From positions 1 through 20,828 of the IMG/VR virus record IMGVR_UViG_3300033145_002252: DNA of 20,828 nt; one strand, given 5' to 3'. The notes beneath the pieces were generated by a model. It saw nothing but the letters and a program-made list of their open reading frames with translations, had not been told where the DNA came from and ran no database searches. This DNA comes from a virus. The translations under genes and the position numbers were made by a program. This document shows positions 3,432 through 20,828 of this stretch, piece after piece. The stretch's first letter is position 1. Each line of letters opens with the position of its first letter.

Positions 3432-3743
3432 TTAGAAATTTACAAAACGTCCTGGATGTGAAAATAATTCTTCAGGCTCTAGGTTCAGGGCCTGTGAAAT
3501 ATTCATGATTGCCGTGGGGTTCTTTTTAAGCCCTTTGATTGCGTAAGATATGGACGGAATGGAAACCTCGCCCTTTATTTCTGTAAATTTGATGCCGTTT
3601 AAAACGATCAGGGCATGACGAATTTTCGGCAAGGGATATCCGAGTTCGTTCAGACAGTTAAGCGCTGCCCGGTTTGTGTTAGATTTGTCTTGTAAAATTT
3701 TTTTCACTCTGCTATTTTTGATTATTTCTCTAATAAATTTCAT
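3432..3743 (-). CDS. Ner/Cro-like HTH regulator
   Basis: 103 residues. The C-terminal half (about 40-97) reads as an HTH: IRHALIVLNGIKFTEIKGEV, then SIPSISYAIKGLKKNPTAIM and ISQALNLEPEELFSHP. The 'PxxIxxAL..G....xxA.xL.l.PEELF' pattern matches Mu Ner-like and XRE regulators, which control early transcription. The N-terminus (about 40 residues, basic) is unassigned. The start ATG at 3743 touches a 17-bp perfect dyad (3743-3759) that also abuts a divergent gene and is a natural operator candidate. AAAGGA upstream of the ATG comes from that dyad. It probably plays a Cro-like role opposite the CI-like protein at 4366. Confidence 0.7.
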   Translation of the reverse strand: MKFIREIIKNSRVKKILQDKSNTNRAALNCLNELGYPLPKIRHALIVLNGIKFTEIKGEVSIPSISYAIKGLKKNPTAIMNISQALNLEPEELFSHPGRFVNF

Positions 3744-3759
3744 TAAAGGGTTCCTTTAA
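3743..3759. promoter_or_regulatory. 17-bp perfect dyad between divergent genes
   Basis: TTAAAGG-GTT-CCTTTAA: 7-bp perfect arms around a 3-base centre. It occupies essentially the whole gap between the Ner-like gene (start at 3743, minus) and the gene at 3761 (plus). The arms supply an SD-like AAAGG in both directions. It may be an operator for the adjacent HTH protein, a shared ribosome-binding palindrome, or both. Confidence 0.5.
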
Positions 3760-3760
3760 G

Positions 3761-4069
3761 ATGATAAGGTTTCCACACTTTTTTAAAATAAAGGCCAGGC
3801 CAAAATTCAAAAATTCCGATCTTGCCGGCGCATATATCCACATATGGGTTATGGCGGAGACTCTGGAGGCCGCTGAATCTCGCGCTACTCATTACGTTTC
3901 CGAACATCTCTGGGAGATAGAAGCGGTTGAATTCGGCGCTCGGATGCAGCCCGAGCAGATTGCTCGTCTGGATAAACCAGAAGCAGCGAACCATCAGAAC
4001 GCATTAAAGAACGGGATCGCAGCCGAAATTCACGCCTGGCCGGAAAAAGATCGTCCGGGTGTTTGTTAG
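3761..4069 (+). CDS. 102-residue phage protein, antisense within the early operon
   Basis: A protein-like composition with a mixed alpha/beta pattern: IRFPHFFKIKARPKF (strand), AGAYIHIWVMAETLEAAESR (strand then helix), HLWEIEAVEFGARM, PEQIARLDKPEAANHQNAL, and a closing NGIAAEIHAWPEK. This layout resembles an uncharacterised small family in phages and islands in which a strand with 'hIWV.A.tleeA' is followed by 'W.ie..e'. Two minus-strand ORFs overlap it (3743-3994, which stops at the Ner start, and 3885-4085, which starts at the 48-residue gene's stop). Their Arg/Ser-rich or random composition makes me read them as shadows. The SD is weak. If real, the gene is convergent with and antisense to early leftward transcription. 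Confidence 0.65.
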   Translation: MIRFPHFFKIKARPKFKNSDLAGAYIHIWVMAETLEAAESRATHYVSEHLWEIEAVEFGARMQPEQIARLDKPEAANHQNALKNGIAAEIHAWPEKDRPGVC

Positions 4070-7320: not shown

Positions 7321-7368
7321 TGGTAGGCACGAGTGGATTTGAACCACCGACTTCTACCGTGTCAGGGT
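7321..7368 (-). other. Partial tRNA-Val(GAC) 3' segment: presumed att core
   Basis: Read on the minus strand this gives an anticodon loop CTGACAC (anticodon GAC, plus 7361-7363) with part of its stem, a T arm (GGTGG, loop TTCAAAT, CCACT), the acceptor 3' strand CGTGCCT, discriminator A and CCA (plus 7321-7323). There is no D arm and no proper 5' half. Upstream sequence has an AGGCAC that could pair with the acceptor but is 6 bases too close, so this is not a whole tRNA. Phage integrases commonly carry the tRNA 3' half in attP to rebuild the gene. Phage genes flank it on both sides. Confidence 0.8.
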
Positions 7369-10972: not shown

Positions 10973-11069
10973 TTTTCCTGTCTCCTATTTTGTTTAAGGT
11001 TACGGTTGCTTTCACGTTTTGAACTTCCAAAACCACTGATTTCTTTTTCTTCTCTTTTTTTTCTTCCAC
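10953..11069 (-). CDS. 38-residue Lys-rich mini-ORF with GTG start
   Basis: It starts with GTG at 11069, overlapping the preceding stop codon (TAGTG), with GGAGGAGG 7-8 bases upstream. The product opens with a strongly basic/acidic stretch (MEEKKEKKKKS) and then VVLEVQNVKATVTLNKIGD. The strong SD and stop-start overlap support translation. It also provides coupling to the next gene, whose start lies inside it. Confidence 0.5.
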   Translation of the reverse strand: MEEKKEKKKKSVVLEVQNVKATVTLNKIGDRKNGKNRT

Positions 11070-12814
11070 TATGTGCCTCCTCCTGTTTCCGTCAGTTCGA
11101 TATTATACTCGGAATCTTTAGATAATGTTATGGCGTATTCCGTGTCTTTGGATAAGGCCATGTCATATTCCGTGGACTGCGCCAGGGTTATAAGTATCAA
11201 TCCGCTGACGATGTTGAAATTTATATTGTCGATTATCCCGCTGGACAACAGACTGTTGATGACCAGCAGTTGTTTTTGTGTAAGTACGGTATTGTCGAGA
11301 ATGCCGGATGATAAGACTTCCTGAACCGTCAATATGTGCTTTTGTGTTAATCCGACATTATCTATGGTTCCGGCGGATAAGGCATCGGCAACTATTAGCA
11401 GGATAGACAGACTCAGCGTAACATTATCAACAGCTCCAGCTGATAGTAAATCCTGGATCGCTAAAACATGCTTCTGTGTCAGCGCAACATTGTCTAAGGC
11501 TCCGCTGGTAATCATGTCCGCAACCACCAGTAAGGTTGCGAATGTCAGCTCAACATTATCAATCGCGCCGGATGTTAATAATTCCTGGACAACAAGCAGA
11601 TGTTTCTGAATTAATGCGACATTATCGAGCGCGCCGGAGGATATAAGCTCCTGAACGGCTAAAATATGCTTTTGGGTTAAATCTAAATTGTCAAGCGAGT
11701 TGGATGATAGTAGGTCTGCAACGATGAGCAAAATCGCAACAGATAATACAGTGTTGTCTATCGTGCCGGATGATAAAAGCTCTTGAATAGCCAATACGTT
11801 TTGTTGTATCAGGTCGACATTCTCTATCGCCCCGGATGATAACAAGGCCTGGATTGCTAAAACATGATCCTGAATCAAATCTAAGTTATCTAAAAATCCT
11901 GAAGATATAAGGCTCTGAACAGATAAAAGGAAATTTTGTATTAAATCAACATTATCGATAGCTCCGGCTGATAATAGTTCTTGAATGGCGAGGACGTTCG
12001 CCTGGGTTAAATCTATATTATCTAAAACCCCTGCGCTCGTTAGTGCCTGGATTGCCAAGGTGTGAGCTTGGGTTAGATCAACGTTGTCAAGGGTTCCTGC
12101 GCTTTCAGCATCGGCAACTGTCAAGGTTGAACCAGCCGCTCCAGGCTCAATAGCAAACTGAAAACCAGCCATACTATCAGCTACAGCAGGCTCAACGCTT
12201 GCCGTTCCGGTAGCCCCCGTTCCCGACATCTGGCGTGTACCAAAAACTCCACAAGCATCATTTGACTCAGTTCCGGGGAAATTTTCTGCCCGTTCAACCC
12301 AACCTGTACCAGAAATACTAAACGAACCAGCATCACCCCCATCATATGCAGCAACATAAAAAGCCAAACAATCAGCTTCCGTACAATTAACTCCTGTAAT
12401 ATCCAGAGCAGAACCCGAAGCGGCAAAACTATCTGCTCCAGTTAAATGTAGTGCAGGAGTCCCGCTAATAAGAATACAAAAAGCCCACATTTCTGTACTA
12501 ATCGACTGCGGAATATTAAAACTTGAACCCTCTCCTCCATCTACCACTTTATAAAATGCGGCAGCATGGCAATCCGAAGCTCCAGTTCCAAGCTCACTAA
12601 TAAGCGTAAAACCTGTAGGCTTATTAGTATCATCATCCCAAGACGGATCAGCGCTGGTAGAATCGTTTCCACAAATGATGATAAGCAAATCACCAACTTC
12701 AGCATCTTTAGGATCATCACCATCGGAACTTCCGCTTGTTGGCTTATCAATATCTATAGAAGTTACCGCAGCCGTAGTCCCCGCCGCTTCCCAGCAATTT
12801 AAGACTGTTGCCAT
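11069..12814 (-). CDS. Fibre-like phage protein with fourteen 22-residue repeats
   Basis: 581 residues. Residues 1-225 form a beta-rich head typical of phage tail or virion-associated proteins (GDLLIIICGNDSTSADPSW, MWAFCILISGTP, then AGFQFAIEPG). Residues 231-538 are fourteen tandem 22-residue units with the core LAIQELLSSGAIDNVDLTQK. The C-terminus (about 547-576) has three decapeptides (STEYDMALSK and variants). Units fall into two types: most have a TQxH..LAIQ side, while three have an SxxILLIVAD-type side. The 'DN(V)xLTQ' repeat style is known in phage tail-fibre proteins. It likely forms an elongated receptor-binding or spacer stalk. The repeat DNA is diverged, not exact. Confidence 0.8.
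   Translation of the reverse strand: MATVLNCWEAAGTTAAVTSIDIDKPTSGSSDGDDPKDAEVGDLLIIICGNDSTSADPSWDDDTNKPTGFTLISELGTGASDCHAAAFYKVVDGGEGSSFNIPQSISTEMWAFCILISGTPALHLTGADSFAASGSALDITGVNCTEADCLAFYVAAYDGGDAGSFSISGTGWVERAENFPGTESNDACGVFGTRQMSGTGATGTASVEPAVADSMAGFQFAIEPGAAGSTLTVADAESAGTLDNVDLTQAHTLAIQALTSAGVLDNIDLTQANVLAIQELLSAGAIDNVDLIQNFLLSVQSLISSGFLDNLDLIQDHVLAIQALLSSGAIENVDLIQQNVLAIQELLSSGTIDNTVLSVAILLIVADLLSSNSLDNLDLTQKHILAVQELISSGALDNVALIQKHLLVVQELLTSGAIDNVELTFATLLVVADMITSGALDNVALTQKHVLAIQDLLSAGAVDNVTLSLSILLIVADALSAGTIDNVGLTQKHILTVQEVLSSGILDNTVLTQKQLLVINSLLSSGIIDNINFNIVSGLILITLAQSTEYDMALSKDTEYAITLSKDSEYNIELTETGGGT
11201..12124 (-). repeat. Fourteen 66-base in-frame repeats
   Basis: The DNA encoding the 22-residue repeats has a 66-base period. 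On the plus strand, words such as TTGTCTAAGG/TTATCAATCG and CTGGATCGCT recur once per unit. The copies are diverged enough for stable inheritance, but unequal recombination between units could change stalk length. Confidence 0.85.
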
Positions 12815-13261: not shown

Positions 13262-13735
13262 TCAGTCTTCGCTTTTATGCTTCGCCCCGACAAAACGCAG
13301 GGCAGGCCCTTTGATTTTTTTTACATCATCTATATTCATCGCCCGCAGCGTGTGCGAGCTGGACAGAATCAACGCTTTGGCCAGGGTTTCGGAGTCTATG
13401 GTGTTTCGGCGCTCGATTTCGTCTGCGAATATCTGTTTGATATCTCCGATTTCGTTTAATGTCTGTGCCGATCTGTTTCGAGCCTGGCCGGCATCCACCT
13501 GCACACCTCGAATGGATGCCTCCACCGAGGGCAAATATTGTGCCAGAAAATCAATAACGTTGACGTTCTGATCTTTAATCACTTTTTTGCCCGGCTCGGT
13601 CTTGCCGTCCTCGATCTGGATCGTACGTGTCATTGACTGGCTGACGGCTTTTAACATTATGTTGCCGATGAGGGCTTCGCCCTGGGGCGATGCGAAAAAG
13701 TTGTTCAGCGCCTTTGTTAATGCTTTTTTGAACAT
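13262..13735 (-). CDS. 157-residue phage structural or assembly protein
   Basis: It starts at ATG 13735, directly after the A1 repeat and its SD hairpin; the frame extends upstream into the repeat, which I take as non-coding. It has a basic helical N-terminus (MFKKALTKALNNFFASPQGE), a middle with DQNVNVIDFLAQYLPSVEAS, then heptad-like helices (NEIGDIKQIFADEIERRNTI). The C-terminus is basic. No family is recognised. The position between collar-tip and fibre genes suggests a tail part. Confidence 0.7.
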   Translation of the reverse strand: MFKKALTKALNNFFASPQGEALIGNIMLKAVSQSMTRTIQIEDGKTEPGKKVIKDQNVNVIDFLAQYLPSVEASIRGVQVDAGQARNRSAQTLNEIGDIKQIFADEIERRNTIDSETLAKALILSSSHTLRAMNIDDVKKIKGPALRFVGAKHKSED

Positions 13736-13737
13736 AA

Positions 13738-13824
13738 AAAATAACCTCCGGTTATTTTGGCTTGAGGCTGGGAAGTTGGGAAGCAAAAGCCTCCCAACCT
13801 CCTAACTTCCCAGCCTCATAGCCT
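13738..13824. repeat. Intergenic octamer-hairpin repeat, family A copy 1
   Basis: It fills the gap between the collar-tip gene's stop (TTA at 13825-13827) and the next start. The outer arms GAGGCTGGGAAGTT and AACTTCCCAGCCTC pair perfectly over 14 bp. Between them lie GGGAAGC-AAAA-GCCTCCC and related words, with an overall period of about 8 bases. At the start-codon end is a second hairpin: arms AAAATAACC (13738-13746) and GGTTATTTT (13750-13758) around TCC. It contains the SD (GGAGG on the minus strand, plus 13745-13749). Confidence 0.85.
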
Positions 13825-14496
13825 TTATAGGTCTGGATATTGTAAGGTTCCAACCGCCGCGGCGGGCCGATACGTAGTGCCGTGATTATGGCTGAGATCA
13901 CCGCCGCCGTCGGTATCGGTTGTAAATGAATGTGTGTGCGCTCCTGCCGACAACGCAGCAGCAGCGGCATCCGTAGAGTCTGTACCATCATCTATTTGTT
14001 GGACTTGATTATCTTCGGCGCCGCCTATAATAAATGTATTTACATCATGCGTATGTGCTCCATCGCTGTCTACCGTTCCTGAATGAGCATGATCCGGGAT
14101 TTCGGTTGCCGCCAGTGTATGCCCGGGCTGCGTCCATGTGCCGGCAGCCACTCCGCCGTTTACGTTGTAAGCGTTGGACCCGCCTTTGACAGCCAGAACA
14201 CGATCCGTCACGGTGGCATCGATAACCCAGCCCTCGCAGGTGTCGTTTCGGTACACCCACATTTTCTGATTTGCATCGCCGTGTAGTATTGCAAGCCATG
14301 CGGTGTTCCCGATATTCCGGCGTTTCAAACCCTTGGCGGTATCTCCCCAGGGCATGAATGCTACGATGTTTGATGGGGCCGAGCCGCCGGAAAAAGAGGA
14401 CTGCAGCGTGTCGAGCATCTTTTCCACATCCTGCATAATGACGTCGGCGGTTCTGGCATCTTTGTCGTATACGTCTGTGTTCCAGTCTTGAGACAT
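13825..14496 (-). CDS. Tail collar / receptor-binding tip protein with HxH motifs
   Basis: 223 residues. Four HxH motifs are visible: H136-A-H138 (IPDHAHSG), H148-T-H150 (GAHTHDV), H187-T-H189 (GAHTHSF) and H203-N-H205 (SHNHGTTYRP), before AAAVGTLQYPDL. This is the pattern of short tail-fibre/collar-type proteins with a metal-coordinating C-terminal tip, as in T4 gp12-like and related proteins. The N-terminus (1-120) should attach to the tail or form a trimer. It probably binds the host surface. It lies between two family A repeats. Confidence 0.8.
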   Translation of the reverse strand: MSQDWNTDVYDKDARTADVIMQDVEKMLDTLQSSFSGGSAPSNIVAFMPWGDTAKGLKRRNIGNTAWLAILHGDANQKMWVYRNDTCEGWVIDATVTDRVLAVKGGSNAYNVNGGVAAGTWTQPGHTLAATEIPDHAHSGTVDSDGAHTHDVNTFIIGGAEDNQVQQIDDGTDSTDAAAAALSAGAHTHSFTTDTDGGGDLSHNHGTTYRPAAAVGTLQYPDL

Positions 14497-14498
14497 AA

Positions 14499-14596
14499 TA
14501 AACTCCTTTGGAGTTTAAGCTGGGAAGCTTGGAAGCCAGGAAGTTGGGAAGCAAAAAGCCTCCTAACCTCCAAGCCTTCCAGCCTCATAGCCTATG
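14499..14596. repeat. Intergenic octamer-hairpin repeat, family A copy 2
   Basis: It runs exactly from the stop of the 98-residue gene (14597) to the start region of the collar-tip gene (14496). It has repeated words such as GAAGCTTG, GAAGCCAG and GAAGTTGG, then inverted counterparts AACCTCC, AAGCCTTC and CAGCCTCA. A separate small hairpin (arms TAAACTCC 14499-14506 and GGAGTTTA 14510-14517, loop TTT) contains the SD GGAG. Confidence 0.85.
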
Positions 14597-14893
14597 TTAT
14601 TCTACTAACAATTCATCAATTCCTGCCTGAGCGATGGTTCGCAGGTTGATTTTGCGATCATATTCCGCCAGGCTTTCCTGCCACCAGGAACGTGTTTTGT
14701 TTTTTAAATCTTCTTTTGATTCTGCGAGTGTCTGGCCGGCGGCTATTGAAACAGCTTTATTTGCCAGTATTTTGTCCGGCGCCGTATCAGTGGTAATGTT
14801 TAATGATACATCATAACTGATTATGGTCTCCGTTCCGTCCAGATTCACGGTTTTATTTTCCACAACGCTTTGCAGTTTCAATAAAAGGGCCAT
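14597..14893 (-). CDS. 98-residue tail-associated protein
   Basis: It starts at the ATG at 14893, preceded by the SD hairpin of repeat A3. It has a beta-like N-terminal half (LKLQSVVENKTVNLDGTETI; ISYDVSLNITTDTAPD) and a helical second half (AAGQTLAESKEDLKNKTRSW; then QESLAEYDRKIN). No family is recognised. It lies between the gpJ-like gene and the collar tip, both bounded by family A repeats, so it is probably a fibre/tail part or its chaperone. Confidence 0.7.
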   Translation of the reverse strand: MALLLKLQSVVENKTVNLDGTETIISYDVSLNITTDTAPDKILANKAVSIAAGQTLAESKEDLKNKTRSWWQESLAEYDRKINLRTIAQAGIDELLVE

Positions 14894-14895
14894 AA

Positions 14896-14986
14896 AAAAT
14901 AACCTCCGGTTATTTTGGCTTGAGGCTGGGAAGCCTGGAAGCAAAAAGCCTTCCAACCTCCAAGCCTTCCATCCTCACAGCCTATG
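14896..14986. repeat. Intergenic octamer-hairpin repeat, family A copy 3
   Basis: It spans the gap between the gpJ-like stop (14987) and the next gene. Its SD hairpin (AAAATAACC 14896-14904, TCC, GGTTATTTT 14908-14916) is identical to that of copy 1, as is the following GGCTTGAGGCTGGGAAG. The inner words (CCTGGAAG, AAAGCCTTCC, AACCTCC) differ, so copies vary most in the middle. Confidence 0.85.
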
Positions 14987-17900
14987 TTATACTTCCGCCG
15001 GTCCTTCGTATGCGAGCATGTCCAGCTCTTCTAATGACAGCCGTGCATCGTTGGACGGGTTTATAATTGTCACTTCCGCACCGATATATCCTGCTTTCAC
15101 ATCCGCGCTTAACACCTCGAAATACTCAGCAACGTCAAAACTGTCTCCGGAACCTTCTTTGTGCAATAAAAATGCATTCAACCGCGGTGCGGCGGATGAA
15201 GAGAAAATCTGTGAGAATGTTTTCGTATCCGCGTCATGATCTCCGAAGGTGCCGGTGGTACCCATAACGCCGCCGAAGGTTGTTTCCGACGAGACGAAAG
15301 CAGTATCAAAATTACCCCAGGCTCTGACTATTTCTACGGCGTTCAGATCGTGAGTGGGCGAAATCCATTTTCCGACTCTCGGATTGATCTGCTTTGCTTG
15401 CCAGTTGTCTACATAAAACAACTCTGACGAAGCGATTGATTGATTTTCATGTACTCCCCAAACATACAATCTTTGGTCTTCATTCAAATCAGTAGTATAA
15501 CTTAGAGTCTGCCAACTACCTTGCGTCGTAACAGGTGTTCCGTAAACATATGACATCTCTCCGGCTTTATTTATAATTTGAACCGTATATCTAAAATTTG
15601 TCAATACGGTATTACCGCTCGGAATATATAATCTCGCTTTAAGCTCATAGTTTTGTCCATAAGGACATCTTGCGTTGTTCAAGATAAAATACAATATATG
15701 ATTAGAAACTGTCGAGCCATCTCCGGTAAAACGCATCGAATAGGTTCCCGTATCAGCCTGCGTACTACTTCTTGCTTTTGTGCCGGCGTAGACCAGCATG
15801 GCAGTACTCCACATGGTGGGCTCGGCGTACTCACAGGTTCCATTTTCAATGGCCTGGGCGGTAATCACCTCAAAATAATTATCGTCGATGAATGCTGTAC
15901 CGGAAGGAGTGCCTGGGATATTATACCACCAGCCACCTCCGTAAATCCTGACAAAAGCAGCATTTGCAGGTATTGTAAAATACATTCCAGCTCCACTGGG
16001 ACCTACTGTTATTATATTTTCTTCCCAGACTCCCACCGCACCTACAGGATAAAGATATGTATTGGAAATAAAAACCTTTGCTGAAGTAAGAAAATCCAGT
16101 CGGCAAACAATTAATCCCCCAGTAGTCACTGCTGAAATATACGACCACTGTACAAAACTATAGCACGTAAACGGATTAACCTCATAATCATCATAGCAGC
16201 CGATTACATTTGCTGCGCCAGTAGCCACCAGCTTAGAGCTATAGTCTCCAGTTCTTTTTATAGTACTTTCTATTACAGAACTACCTTGAGCTGTCCATCC
16301 GGAAAAATCACCGGCTTCAAATCCTCCGTCGGAAAGTCTGTTTTCAAAGGTCATTAATCTTAGCCAGTCTACTGCCGAGCCATCGGTGTACTGTTCCGTA
16401 TTGATAAAATATCCGAGGCCGTAATCCCACGTCCATGTGCCGTATGTGGCAAGAAGGGTGTAGCTCGGAGGCAGAAAAACGTCCACAACCGTATAAACGG
16501 GATTGGTTGAGTACAATCCGTTGTTACCTTTCGGAGACATCCAGAACTTGTGTGAGCCCGGCCTGACACCCGTAAACGTCAGAGAGCAGTTTTTCTCCAT
16601 ACTTACAAAAAGAGCCGACGCCCACGACTCTCCGCGGCGGATTTCGTAACCGGCAATGTCCGGCTCTGATATGGGGTCCGCGTATATGGTGACATTGTTG
16701 CCGTTGGCAACAGCAGTCATGGAAGACAGATCAGACGGCACGTTTGTGCGGCCCAGGATGGTTTTTGAAACCGTGTAGCATGAGTCAAAATCTTCTTTTG
16801 CTCCGGAGACACTGACGGATCTGATCTTGACATAATAGATCTCGCTTTCTTCAACGGGATCCAAAACGTAATCGCTGGTGGATTTTGTCATGTATCGATA
16901 ATCGGAGGATCCTCCGATGGAAACCCATATTTCGGCGTAATCCCACCAGGGATATGTCATCGCAGCCGGAGGATCGAAATCTATCTTCCAGCGGGTGAAG
17001 CTTCTTTCGCGATAATAATATACGGTTTCGGCATTGGATACATTGATAACGGACGCCACAGCGCCCAGGATGTTGGGCAGATTGGTCGTGTACCAGGTAT
17101 GAGCCGTGACATCGTAAACATCGTCGTACAAATCGACGTGCTCTTCCACGCCGGTGATGCTCACAAGGTTGTTTTCCAGGTACGACACATTGGTAATTCT
17201 TAATATTTGATCGGTCCAGCCCGGCATGTCATGTGTAAGCTGTATCAGATCCATGGGCTCTAACGCCTGGGCTTTTCCGCCGGCTGTAAACGACACGATG
17301 TTACCCCAGCGCAATCGCTCAAGCTGATAGTTGAGCATCTTGCCGACCAGCTCAACGGTGTTCAGGCCGTATAATTTTACCTCGTTTTCTCGGTAGTCGC
17401 CGTCCGCGGTAATTGCAGCGCTGTCAGGTTTTATCAGATCGGCAACCTGATATGTTCCGGATCCGTCGGTTGCGCCCATGCTGGATAAATACTTTGCCCG
17501 GACGGCATTGGGGCGGTTGAATATGTTGGGCTGATTGATTTTCAGCGAACTTTCAATATTGTCGGAAATCACATCGTCGTCATCAAAGGACATGATCACC
17601 GCTTCGTAATTGAGATCCATAAAAAGCACTTTGAATTTGTTCTCCGAATAGACCAGCCCGCCGCGAAAATTAGGCAGAATCATGTTGATATTATCAACGA
17701 CCGCCTTTTTAGCCCCGGTTATCGGAAGATTGCTTGTCCAGCCTTTGGTCGTGCAGTAATCCTTTGTGTCGTCAACCGAGCCGGTGTCTATCCTGGGAGA
17801 GGCCGGTTCCGGTCCGTACCATGTGTCCAGTCCGAATCCGCCGCGAACCGACGGACGGCTCAGCATGTCGTAAGTACACAGCGCCGGGTTGTCGGAATTT

Positions 17901-18460
17901 TCCGTCACATCGTCGGTGGGATCCCATACCTCCAGTCCGTCAACGATCAACGTGACATTCGGTTCCGAGTTGAACTTGTCTCTGTTATATTTTATTCTAT
18001 AATAAATATAAGCCGTGTATCGCTGCAGATCCGTCCACTCCGGTATAGCGGTGTGCAGCGTCGCACAAACGTTCTGGGTGGATGTGCCGGTGAAAAATTC
18101 GTAATAAACCTCATCGCCATAATCTGTGTAGATCTTGTCATCGAAAAAAACCTGATCAACGCTGTTTTCCTGGTGAATGCCGCCCACCGGGCCTTCTCCA
18201 ACTATTCCAATATAATGCAAATACTCGTTATCTGTCCCGGAACTACCGATATACACCTGGTTGACTCCCACCCGGCAGGTTCCGTATATCAACGGAATGG
18301 CGGCGGACGTTGAACGTTTTGCTTTTAGATGGCCGCCCTGGTCGAGATCGGAAATATCGTCTGGTTCGTCAGGGCCGAAAATCTTGCCGATTATATAAGA
18401 AAATAATATTGTGGCTATCAGCTTGGCTAACCACACAAGCGCTGGAATCGCTGCCGCCAT
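14987..18460 (-). CDS. gpJ-like central tail-tip protein with C-terminal adhesion domains
   Basis: 1157 residues from the ATG at 18460 (TAATG overlap with the NlpC-like gene, AGGAG upstream). Residues 1-30 are hydrophobic (PALVWLAKLIATILFSYIIG). About 45-460 is the tail-tip hub region (AAIPLIYGTCRVGVNQVYIG; later VSITGVEEHVDLYD), as in lambda gpJ-type proteins. Two Fn3-like domains follow (about 480-570 and 573-665). Then come two CBM4/9-like jelly-roll units (about 705-868, opening LSDGGFEAGDFSGWT; about 870-1026, ENGTCEYAEPTMWS). The last 130 residues are beta-rich. It closes the tail tube and likely carries host-surface binding. The CBM-like units suggest a glycan receptor (inference). Confidence 0.88.
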   Translation of the reverse strand: MAAAIPALVWLAKLIATILFSYIIGKIFGPDEPDDISDLDQGGHLKAKRSTSAAIPLIYGTCRVGVNQVYIGSSGTDNEYLHYIGIVGEGPVGGIHQENSVDQVFFDDKIYTDYGDEVYYEFFTGTSTQNVCATLHTAIPEWTDLQRYTAYIYYRIKYNRDKFNSEPNVTLIVDGLEVWDPTDDVTENSDNPALCTYDMLSRPSVRGGFGLDTWYGPEPASPRIDTGSVDDTKDYCTTKGWTSNLPITGAKKAVVDNINMILPNFRGGLVYSENKFKVLFMDLNYEAVIMSFDDDDVISDNIESSLKINQPNIFNRPNAVRAKYLSSMGATDGSGTYQVADLIKPDSAAITADGDYRENEVKLYGLNTVELVGKMLNYQLERLRWGNIVSFTAGGKAQALEPMDLIQLTHDMPGWTDQILRITNVSYLENNLVSITGVEEHVDLYDDVYDVTAHTWYTTNLPNILGAVASVINVSNAETVYYYRERSFTRWKIDFDPPAAMTYPWWDYAEIWVSIGGSSDYRYMTKSTSDYVLDPVEESEIYYVKIRSVSVSGAKEDFDSCYTVSKTILGRTNVPSDLSSMTAVANGNNVTIYADPISEPDIAGYEIRRGESWASALFVSMEKNCSLTFTGVRPGSHKFWMSPKGNNGLYSTNPVYTVVDVFLPPSYTLLATYGTWTWDYGLGYFINTEQYTDGSAVDWLRLMTFENRLSDGGFEAGDFSGWTAQGSSVIESTIKRTGDYSSKLVATGAANVIGCYDDYEVNPFTCYSFVQWSYISAVTTGGLIVCRLDFLTSAKVFISNTYLYPVGAVGVWEENIITVGPSGAGMYFTIPANAAFVRIYGGGWWYNIPGTPSGTAFIDDNYFEVITAQAIENGTCEYAEPTMWSTAMLVYAGTKARSSTQADTGTYSMRFTGDGSTVSNHILYFILNNARCPYGQNYELKARLYIPSGNTVLTNFRYTVQIINKAGEMSYVYGTPVTTQGSWQTLSYTTDLNEDQRLYVWGVHENQSIASSELFYVDNWQAKQINPRVGKWISPTHDLNAVEIVRAWGNFDTAFVSSETTFGGVMGTTGTFGDHDADTKTFSQIFSSSAAPRLNAFLLHKEGSGDSFDVAEYFEVLSADVKAGYIGAEVTIINPSNDARLSLEELDMLAYEGPAEV

Positions 18461-18858
18461 TATATAAGTCTCCTGGCCATGATCAATTTGTTGAAACGTC
18501 CGATATGCGCCACACACACTCCTTTTTGGATGGCGGATGTAATAACCATTTTTCTACCAACATATATTCCTGGAAAAATAACCTTCCCAGGCTGCATCAG
18601 TATCACAAGATCGTATATTTTAAGTCTGTCAACAGATACCGGCTGTCCAAGCGATTTAAAAAGCTGCAGCATTCTGGCCTGAGTTAGCTTTGAGTTCGTC
18701 TTGAAATGCTCCTGATAATTATCCAGAGTCAGCTCTCCGAAACTTTTAGGCCCTTCAAACCCCAGATCGGCATAAATGCTGTGCATCAGATGCATGCAGG
18801 GCATCTCGGAAAACGGTTTACCGATGTATTTACTTGTTATTTCGGATAAGGGAACCAT
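18460..18858 (-). CDS. NlpC/P60-fold tail protein, catalytic His missing
   Basis: 132 residues, in the lambda gpK position (between the gpL-like and gpJ-like genes). The start IGKPFSEMP-C21-MHLMHSIYADLG matches the Cys-containing helix of NlpC/P60 peptidases. YDLVILMQ and FPGIYVG match the second and third motifs. However, the family's HVGIYVG reads FPGIYVG (F95, P96), and the later His is also replaced (VITSA). The fold is likely kept, but peptidase activity is doubtful. It may be only a tail-tip assembly factor. The start codon and SD lie in the hairpin at 18856-18878. Confidence 0.7.
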   Translation of the reverse strand: MVPLSEITSKYIGKPFSEMPCMHLMHSIYADLGFEGPKSFGELTLDNYQEHFKTNSKLTQARMLQLFKSLGQPVSVDRLKIYDLVILMQPGKVIFPGIYVGRKMVITSAIQKGVCVAHIGRFNKLIMARRLI

Positions 18859-18954
18859 AAAACTCTCCTGGTTTTATGAGCTGGGAAGCCGGGAGGCCAG
18901 GAAGTTTGGAAGCAAAAAGCCTCCTCACACCCAAGCATCCTGGCATCATAGCCT
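18856..18954. repeat. Intergenic octamer-hairpin repeat, family A copy 4
   Basis: It fills the gap from the gpL-like stop (18955) to the NlpC-like start. It has words GAGCTGG, GAAGCCGG, GAGGCCAG, GAAGTTTG then GAAGCAAAAAGCCTCC, and right-arm partners CCAAGCATCC and GGCATCATAGCC. The SD hairpin differs: CATAAAAC (18856-18863) pairs with GTTTTATG (18871-18878). The start codon is in the stem and the SD (AGGAG on minus) is in the 7-base loop. This is the most diverged copy. Confidence 0.8.
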
Positions 18955-19575
18955 TTATGCATTTTGCGTCCGTCCCCACCAGATCTTCTTTTCTTCGAGA
19001 GACGGCAGAAAACGAAAACCTCCGAAAGAATCCGTGTTTGCTAAAACGACGCATCTGTCATAAGACTGATCGCACCAGGTTTCGGCGCCGCTGTATGTGC
19101 ATTCCGTGCCTTTAAATTCCCAGGGACACGATGCCTGGCACGTTCTGAGTGTACGTTTTGACCAGAGAATGAACTCGTTTACCAGTTTGATCCGAGCCTC
19201 GCCTTCGGTCAGATCCCACTCTCCCACCAGGCCGCGAAACAGCTCCTCGGCCTCTATTATAGTGTAGTTGGAATCCACCATGAAAAACGACAGTATGCAT
19301 GGCTTGCCTGCCACATCTTCACCGAGCAGAATAGACGACATGATAAGGTTGACATTGGCAAAATCAAGCTCCAGGCTGTCCACGCTCATGCCGGCGGAAT
19401 TCGCCACGTTGCCGATGGAAAACGGAAAATGGTCGTACTTATTGCCGCCGTAGTACATATCGATATCGCAGTCGGTGTATCGATAGGTGGAGGCAAATTG
19501 AAACTCTACAAAAAAAAATATGGCTGCTATTTCTTTTGCGAGTTCTGCGGTTATGTTACTATCAAAAGATTTCAA
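18955..19575 (-). CDS. gpL-like tail-tip protein with cysteine cluster
   Basis: 206 residues, starting with TTG at 19575 behind AAAGG in a small hairpin. The N-terminal part includes MYYGGNKYDHFPFSIG. The C-terminal third has SCPWEFKGTECTYSG, WCDQSYDRC and then NTDSFGGFRFLP. The set C150, C159, C168, C175 has the spacing expected for lambda gpL-type tail-tip proteins, whose C-terminal domain binds a [4Fe-4S] cluster (established for lambda gpL). It sits between the gpM-position and gpK-like genes, as expected. A TTG start next to a repeat is unusual. Confidence 0.82.
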   Translation of the reverse strand: MKSFDSNITAELAKEIAAIFFFVEFQFASTYRYTDCDIDMYYGGNKYDHFPFSIGNVANSAGMSVDSLELDFANVNLIMSSILLGEDVAGKPCILSFFMVDSNYTIIEAEELFRGLVGEWDLTEGEARIKLVNEFILWSKRTLRTCQASCPWEFKGTECTYSGAETWCDQSYDRCVVLANTDSFGGFRFLPSLEEKKIWWGRTQNA

Positions 19576-19578
19576 TTA

Positions 19579-19720
19579 AAAACCTTTGGTTTTGAAGGAT
19601 TCAAGGATTCAAGGGGCCGAGGGTTCAAGGGGTGGTGTCGCTCACGCTCCGCCTTTTTAAAAACGACTTTTTATCCTTCACTCGAACCCTTGAATCCTTG
19701 AATCCTCGAACCCTTTTTTT
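19579..19720. repeat. Intergenic octamer-hairpin repeat, family B copy 1
   Basis: Left arm (from 19597): GGATTCAA twice, then GGGGCCGA and GGGTTCAA, a strict 8-base period. Right arm (to 19720): CGAACCCT, TGAATCCT twice, CGAACCCT, then a T-run into the stop codon of the 196-residue gene. The roughly 50-base centre is shared with copy 2. A small hairpin AAAACC-TTT-GGTTTT (19579-19593) next to it contains the SD of the gpL-like gene. Confidence 0.88.
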
Positions 19721-20311
19721 TTATGCTGCACTTAAGCCTTTTAATTTTATTCCATATCGAAATAATATCGTCATAAACAGCTCTCTGGACAGTTTGTCTT
19801 CCATGAATCTGGCACGGATCCGCAGATATCCGGTAAAGTCAACCGTGATCACTTCGCCGGCTGCGGGCGCTGATACAAAGTCTATACGATCCGAGCTGCT
19901 CTCTCCTCCGCCGGTTAAAATCACATAGTCGGTGGTCAAAGTCTGCTCGACGCCGTCTAAATATACGACTTGAGAAGATGTGCTCCTTCCGGAAATATCA
20001 AACACTTCGGTGACGCCGTCTCCAGTACCACAATACTGTCCAGCATGATTCGGCGATATATTGGCCAAAAGGGCCAGATCATAAATATAAAACGCCTCAG
20101 AAGAGCCCTTCCTGGCCATGTAAAAATCGTACAGGATCTGCATGTCGGATTCGGAAAGAGCGTCATACTGCACCGCAACGTCATACTTCGGAAAGAGCTG
20201 CTTCTGCCTGCGCTGTTCTCCGCCTCTGTCAAAACCGGAAATAAGAGTCTTCCATTCCGGCTCTAAAATGAGCGGGTAAATTGGTTTCGGTGATTCAGGA
20301 TAAGTCGACAT
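19721..20311 (-). CDS. Minor tail protein in the gpM position (DUF2460-like)
   Basis: 196 residues. The N-terminal half (YPLILEPEWKTLISGFDRGG, EQRRQKQLFPKYDVAVQY, then MQILYDFYMARKGSSEAFYI) matches minor tail proteins of the DUF2460/TIGR02217 type, from memory. It is followed by a beta segment typical of these proteins (GDGVTEVFDISGR; VVYLDGVEQTLTTDYVILTG; then IDFVSAPAAGEVITVDF) and a closing helix FMEDKLSRELFMTILF. It lies after the tape measure and before gpL-like, fitting the lambda H-M-L order. AAAGG lies about 9 bases from the ATG. The product caps or extends the tail tip. Confidence 0.75.
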   Translation of the reverse strand: MSTYPESPKPIYPLILEPEWKTLISGFDRGGEQRRQKQLFPKYDVAVQYDALSESDMQILYDFYMARKGSSEAFYIYDLALLANISPNHAGQYCGTGDGVTEVFDISGRSTSSQVVYLDGVEQTLTTDYVILTGGGESSSDRIDFVSAPAAGEVITVDFTGYLRIRARFMEDKLSRELFMTILFRYGIKLKGLSAA

Positions 20312-20353
20312 CTCTTTTTACCTTTGTGTCTTCTTCACTTGTTTTTGTTATAA

Positions 20354-20475
20354 GGATTCAAGGGGTCAAGGGGCCGAGGGTTCAAGTGGTGGTGTCGCTT
20401 TGCTCCGCCTTTTTAAAAACGACTTTTTATCCTTCACTCGAACCCTTGAATCCCTGAATCCTTGAATCCTTTTTT
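20354..20475. repeat. Intergenic octamer-hairpin repeat, family B copy 2
   Basis: Nearly identical to copy 1 (roughly 90% or better by eye). The words GGATTCAA, GGGGTCAA, GGGGCCGA, GGGTTCAA are followed by the common centre (GTGTCGCT, GCTCCGCC, TTTTTAAAAACGAC, TTTTTATCCTTCACT), then AACCCTTGAATCCCTGAATCC and CTTGAATCC plus a T-run. It touches the tape-measure stop codon (20476-20478). Unlike the other five copies, no clear SD hairpin lies at its left end; 42 bases separate it from the next start. Confidence 0.88.
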
Positions 20476-20828
20476 TTACAACGTTCTCCTCATCGTGCTT
20501 CTCAAATTCGTATTCCCAATCATGGCATCGTCTACCACCTTGACAATGCTGCCGGGATTTCTTCTAATCATGTCGTCGAAACTCTTTGCATCATTGGCGT
20601 TGATAATTATGGTTGTACCGCCCCCGCCGCCTTCGGTTTTGACACCCAAGTCGCCGCCGGAAGTACGGGTCAGGGGCAGAATCGCCTCCGGGCCGGCCTC
20701 TCCCATCAGTCCTGCTCCGGATGCAAACGGGAAAACAGTCGGGCGGTTGACGATCCCGCCGCTGGCAAAAGGAACCATGCCGGATTGATTGAAGACGGCG
20801 CCCTGAGCTGCAACCATTCCATCCCACG
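20476..20828 (-). CDS. Tail tape-measure protein, C-terminal end (partial)
   Basis: The frame is open to the right edge, so the gene is cut by the window. The last ~117 residues show the standard tape-measure C-terminus: ASGGIVNRPTVFPFASGAGL, MGEAGPEAILPLTRTSGGDL, then GVKTEGGGGG and TTIIINAND, ending ...RSTMRRTL. Tape-measure proteins set tail length and help DNA entry. The motif at residues LPLTRTSGGDLGVK recurs in the early protein at 672-1385. The stop codon merges with the T-run of repeat B2. Confidence 0.88.
   Translation of the reverse strand, partial: WDGMVAAQGAVFNQSGMVPFASGGIVNRPTVFPFASGAGLMGEAGPEAILPLTRTSGGDLGVKTEGGGGGTTIIINANDAKSFDDMIRRNPGSIVKVVDDAMIGNTNLRSTMRRTL

Follow-up and report, generated by a model that had tools for sequence, protein, structure and literature searches.

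Small hairpins around the Shine–Dalgarno sequence adjoin palindromic repeats ahead of phage late genes

How is the Shine–Dalgarno sequence (SD) of a phage late gene arranged when a long palindromic repeat stands directly before it, and what could keep such an arrangement in place? The question is raised by the IMG/VR virus record IMGVR_UViG_3300033145_002252, analysed here over 20,828 bases (the window), whose late genes lie on the minus strand and include those for a baseplate hub protein (PF09931), a DUF2460 protein (PF09343), a tail protein (PF13550), a tape-measure protein and a tail-fibre-like protein. Palindromic repeats occupy six junctions of the window; type A, with units like GGAAGGCTT, accounts for four of them and type B, with units like GGATTCAAGG, for two. 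A first-pass annotation had placed a small perfect hairpin with the SD next to five of these six repeats, and we found all five on the coding (minus) strand. They are listed below with their repeats, each P value coming from a comparison with dinucleotide-shuffled versions of the 34 nt upstream.

13738..13758, minus strand: SD hairpin AAAATAACC(GGA)GGTTATTTT of the gene starting at 13735; P = 0.002; dG −5.6; P(formed) 0.94; flush with the repeat stem
13759..13824, minus strand: type A palindromic repeat between the stop codon of 13825–14496 and the SD hairpin; fold z −8.6
14499..14517, minus strand: SD hairpin TAAACTCC(AAA)GGAGTTTA of the tail-fibre-like gene starting at 14496; P = 0.012; dG −7.2
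14518..14593, minus strand: type A palindromic repeat
14896..14916, minus strand: SD hairpin AAAATAACC(GGA)GGTTATTTT of the gene starting at 14893, identical to 13738–13758; P = 0.003
14917..14983, minus strand: type A palindromic repeat
18856..18878, minus strand: SD hairpin CATAAAAC(CAGGAGA)GTTTTATG, including the start codon of gene 18460–18858; P = 0.003
18879..18956, minus strand: type A palindromic repeat
19579..19593, minus strand: weak SD hairpin AAAACC(AAA)GGTTTT before the TTG start at 19575 of the PF09931 baseplate hub gene; P = 0.205; dG −2.3; P(formed) 0.02 in context
19594..19720, minus strand: type B palindromic repeat (GGATTCAAGG units)
20352..20477, minus strand: type B palindromic repeat without SD hairpin, an internal negative case

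Four of the five hairpins are individually significant (P 0.002–0.012), while that at 19579–19593 is not significant alone (P = 0.205); its TTG start is backed by orthologues. The SD had been said to lie inside each hairpin, and all five do carry it, although in the identical copies at 13738–13758 and 14896–14916 its GGA core is the loop and not part of the stem. Genes that had been named as free of an SD hairpin gave no stem (9015) or a stem of 5 bp (12821, P = 0.12), and at the sixth window repeat (gene 19721–20311) there is no SD hairpin, the best stem having 3 bp.

Read along the coding strand, a junction runs from the stop codon through the repeat stem-loop and the small hairpin to a stretch of 0–6 nt and the start codon. 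The small hairpin adjoins the base of the repeat stem with zero gap at four of the five window sites, and at most sites its 3′ arm ends 0–6 nt ahead of the start codon or else takes the start codon in. As its loop it has GGA (the SD core), AAA immediately 5′ of GG or, in one case, CAGGAGA. Its arms are rich in A on the 5′ side and in T on the 3′ side. The stems are weak (−1.4 to −7.2 kcal/mol), and a few of the hairpins (19579–19593, that of contig L207 and that at 17706 in L239) are not predicted to form in context. We rejected the idea that the hairpin is an integral part of one repeat element: the two B repeats of the window are 96% alike over a 76-nt block and only one has a hairpin, and its four type A copies carry three different hairpins.

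The main rival to an RNA-level reading of this anatomy, although an unlikely one in our estimate, is a by-product of DNA processing, in which template switching or fold-back synthesis during gain or replacement of a repeat would copy one side of the ribosome site inverted and leave a harmless palindrome that persists. The hairpins have several properties that fit such an origin, being nearly perfect and located at the boundary of repeats that are evidently labile, with almost exclusively Watson–Crick pairs (few are G–U) and strand-biased arms, as if one arm had been copied from the other; the spacer between SD and start has 61% T in hairpin genes vs 23–26% in other genes. On the other side, GGA or AAA at the SD forms the apex in nearly every case.

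The hairpin recurs in further phage contigs, mostly those with Desulfobacterota-like repeats. It generally consists of an A-rich arm, C(GGA)G or C(AAA)G in the middle and a T-rich arm, followed by the start codon, and it is placed directly 3′ of palindromic tandem repeats that belong to many unrelated families. We fetched phage relatives by protein and host DNA by repeat B, took gene starts from open frames and SD rules, and scored every gene start by whether a C(GGA)G or C(AAA)G triloop coincides with its SD. An upstream gap of 50 nt or more served as a stand-in for a repeat, some of these long gaps holding none. Triloop SD stems of at least 5 bp were found at 19 of 237–247 long-gap phage genes (the denominator varies with the minimum gene length) and at 0 of 203–222 short-gap ones, an excess with a Fisher P of about 6e-6, a value to be read as indicative since the contigs are not phylogenetically independent. 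Over 200 trials in which the 5′ sides were swapped between genes, such stems averaged 0.31 and never numbered more than 2. The first-pass annotation had tied strong SD dyads at late genes to the repeats, and this link held up, with the triloop form at 0/203 phage genes without a long gap. Most long-gap phage genes have no hairpin, and the repeats therefore do not require one.

The commonest form, the exact 15-mer AAAACCGGAGGTTTT, was found at 61 distinct sites in IMG/VR hits, 42 of them directly 5′ of an open frame, and 27 of these 42 follow repeat-rich sequence of what by eye are many families; a control hairpin in the IMG/VR scan was start-linked at 16 of 63 sites. After removal of the bait sites, the AAAACCGGAGGTTTT contigs had other stems at 9/199 long-gap and 1/184 short-gap genes, against 0/131 and 1/213 in the contigs fetched with the control hairpin. 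The total reached 74 hairpin sites, 54 of them repeat-linked, with 29 different stem sequences. An exact 21-mer of the window had no match in IMG/VR. A different arrangement is seen in one relative of the window (G001, loci L010 and L149), where another repeat, CCTGCGTAGCTTTAGCGAAGCAGG, lies directly 5′ of several start codons and supplies the SD from its 3′ arm.

The probable hosts were placed by the occurrence of repeat B, present in 64 of a sample of 291 genomes from the order that a Desulfobacterales MAG belongs to. None of the genes scored in repeat-bearing host genomes (0/241 and 0/121, together 0/362) has the triloop SD hairpin, and we rejected the idea of a host feature on this count. 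In the hosts, at loci such as L096, L172, L078 and L112, a small hairpin of another kind, TTCTCCCAA(CTAA)TTGGGAGAAGAACC, often comes after the chromosomal type B repeat.

Three relatives of the window with the same genes (G001, G002 and L291) allow the hairpins of orthologues to be compared, with stem pairs counted by hand outward from the loop. Ahead of the minor tail gene (MQQTGAN...) the hairpin of G001 is TAAATTAC(GGA)GTAATTTA, which follows a GGTTTACGG-type repeat, and that of L291 is ATAATAATC(GGA)GATTATTAT, which follows type B; pairs 2–5 from the loop (four of eight) are altered on both sides and still paired, and the distance from GGA to ATG is 10 nt in both. The tape-measure gene has AAAACAC(GGA)GTGTTTT after type B in G002 vs AAAACC(GGA)GGTTTT after type A in L291, and at the tail-fibre gene TAAACTCC(AAA)GGAGTTTA of the window corresponds to AAACC(GGA)GGTTT in G002, there after a B-type repeat fragment. 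In another lineage, orthologues in L201 and L205 differ by one pair (C–G to A–T), and their loops differ too (GGA vs AAA). Compensatory changes, on which the first-pass annotation had made its proposal depend, are thus present in relatives as double-sided changes, and its view that stem sequences vary while the architecture is kept is supported on this wider body of data. That both arms of same-gene hairpins change together argues against a mere by-product of DNA processing, as do the stems of G001 and G002, which are identical while the repeats diverge.

A further point against that origin is that the hairpin survives replacement of its repeat. In five gene sets the repeat family differs and a hairpin is kept: L205 vs L206/L207, L291 vs G001/G002 at three genes, and the window vs G002 at the tail-fibre gene. 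For example, the gene next to the minor tail gene (MDLYTFF...) has AAAATGC(GGA)GCATTTT after type B in G001 and the same hairpin after type A in L291. Orthologues without a repeat are generally also without a hairpin. At one junction L205 and L206/L207 have 99.6–100% identity on both flanks, whereas the block from stop codon to hairpin is of a different repeat family and its right breakpoint falls within the 5′ arm of the hairpin. The blocks at 2990–3130 in L205 and at 4036–4172 in L207, and that in L206, are unrelated repeats between the same stop codon and SD hairpin, which we take as evidence for exchange of whole intergenic repeat blocks. Elsewhere, the differences between L206 and L207 are patchy in the manner typical for inter-phage recombination, and recombination is therefore the likely route of this exchange too, although assembly mixing in metagenome contigs may be an alternative source of the difference. 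A separate case is L011 8618–8690 (G002), where half a type B repeat takes the place of the native start of the orthologue of window 18460–18858 and holds the GTG start and AAGG of that gene.

One way in which the hairpin could serve the downstream gene is suggested by folding 26 sites in context. The mean probability of pairing between SD and repeat is 0.05 in the native sequences and 0.22 with the 5′ arm shuffled, and the SD is unpaired at 0.66 vs 0.46; the second figure is partly built in, GGA being usually the loop, which does not apply to the first. The reading that we consider best, and hold to be reasonably probable from these predictions, is an SD-presenting RNA hairpin that caps the intergenic palindromic repeat and keeps the SD out of it, and not a tight lock. 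The long palindromic repeat fills the space from the stop codon of a late gene to the ribosome site of the next, and the small hairpin sits at its 3′ base, often flush, with GGA, or AAA before GG, as the loop and its 3′ arm as the spacer to the start. Local pairing of the A-rich and T-rich arms would prevent both the repeat and the coding sequence from capturing the SD, and GGA would stay unpaired and open to the 30S subunit. Hardly any RNA from stop to start would be left single-stranded, while such weak stems could be melted by the ribosome, so that initiation would be permitted and not blocked. The repeats appear to be swapped independently of the hairpin, which would be retained because the downstream gene needs it.

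As a tight lock, the hairpin would sequester the SD and either give low, fixed expression or insulate each tail gene from read-through; the first-pass annotation had suggested such insulation, or the setting of stoichiometry, as possible roles. Two sites look the part, TAAACTCC(AAA)GGAGTTTA with the SD within its stem and CATAAAAC...GTTTTATG with the start codon paired. However, three of the four SD bases are predicted to be unpaired at most sites, with GGA exposed, and the hairpins lie in the stability range in which, by established work on phage MS2, hairpins reduce translation little. Given such weak stems, with the SD core as the loop, a lock is not favoured, and we regard sequestration as highly improbable. 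Terminator-like sites are not in excess: a loose scan (G+C-rich stem plus T run) gave 7 sites in the region vs 8.1 expected, and 14499–14517 is the only one of the hairpins that passes it. Promoter-like sites number 18 vs 10.9 expected, with none listed at a repeat.

A hairpin loop that holds GGA, preferably in the context ANGGA, and overlaps the SD is also the known type of CsrA site, and 51 of the 54 repeat-linked sites have a GGA loop at the SD, with AAA in a few exceptions. They might therefore be binding sites for an RNA-binding protein or endoribonuclease that reads the loop GGA (host CsrA/RsmA, or a phage factor like RegB of T4 acting on GGAG) and times or tunes late translation. The ANGGA context, however, is seen in just 4 of the 15 distinct GGA stems, AAA loops occur in a minority of the hairpins, no CsrA was found in 11 phage records and the motif is absent from the host genes scored above, which makes this reading quite improbable.

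The nearest elements in the open-access literature are the SAS/ESAS of Cluster K mycobacteriophages (PMC3203893; survey PMC12699233), SD-bearing motifs at start codons, often with an upstream inverted repeat and in long gaps; similar SD motifs occur in Microbacterium cluster EF phages (PMC7302621). The design is alike: SAS carry AGGAG or AGGA a few bases 5′ of start codons in several copies per genome, with an inverted repeat just upstream in about half of the cases and gaps over 50 bp, and the hairpins share the position a few bases from the start codon, the inverted repeat directly upstream and the gap over 50 bp. However, we do not count the hairpin as a member. SAS conserve a sequence, with the consensus GGGATAGGAGCCC showing an outer GGG...CCC symmetry around the SD, whereas the hairpins conserve a structure and vary in sequence; with at most two mismatches allowed, the 13-bp consensus was not found at the hairpins, the one window match (two mismatches) being inside a gene and chance-like. 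SAS lie outside structural genes, whereas the hairpins precede tail genes, those downstream genes with a family match being tail or connector genes. ESAS have a single repeat family in each subcluster, and those who described them saw little to support RNA pairing, whereas the repeats described here are of many families and fold strongly. No Rfam family matched at gathering score. The SD hairpin of the phage MS2 coat gene (PMC9894550), which contains the SD and start codon and controls translation through its stability, is likewise an RNA hairpin with an SD, but it is a single site in an RNA phage with no repeat attached. Structured standby sites upstream of the SD (PMC3936740) also have strong hairpins that the ribosome must handle before the SD, but there the SD is free, while here it has its own small, flush hairpin.

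A wider proposal is possible, although we find it doubtful and put it forward tentatively, namely that a structure-conserved, largely sequence-free SD triloop hairpin is a widespread RNA element in phages whose genomes are filled with repeats. It would give a fixed landing edge for swapping unrelated palindromic repeats into and out of the space from stop codon to hairpin without harm to the downstream gene, repeat exchange and hairpin together forming a modular system of operon evolution. If true, this would be a ribosome-site element known by shape and position and not by sequence, of a kind that searches for sequence motifs miss. It would suggest how phages tolerate strongly folded repeats within essential operons, and its natural compensatory variants would make a test case for weak local hairpins protecting initiation sites. 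The SAS/ESAS puzzle of mycobacteriophages may likewise gain an RNA-structure reading.

Three other features of the window deserve mention. Next to the integrase gene, CGAGTGGATTTGAACCACCGACT (7330–7352) has the look of the 3′ portion of a tRNA gene, possibly the sign of an attachment site; ARAGORN gave no full tRNA there. The divergent starts of genes 3432–3743 and 3761–4069 have in common a 7-bp palindrome, TTAAAGG(AAC)CCTTTAA (3744–3760), that is SD-like on both strands. Finally, gene 11069–12814 holds about a dozen internal repeats of 66 nt (22 residues) at 11270–12025.
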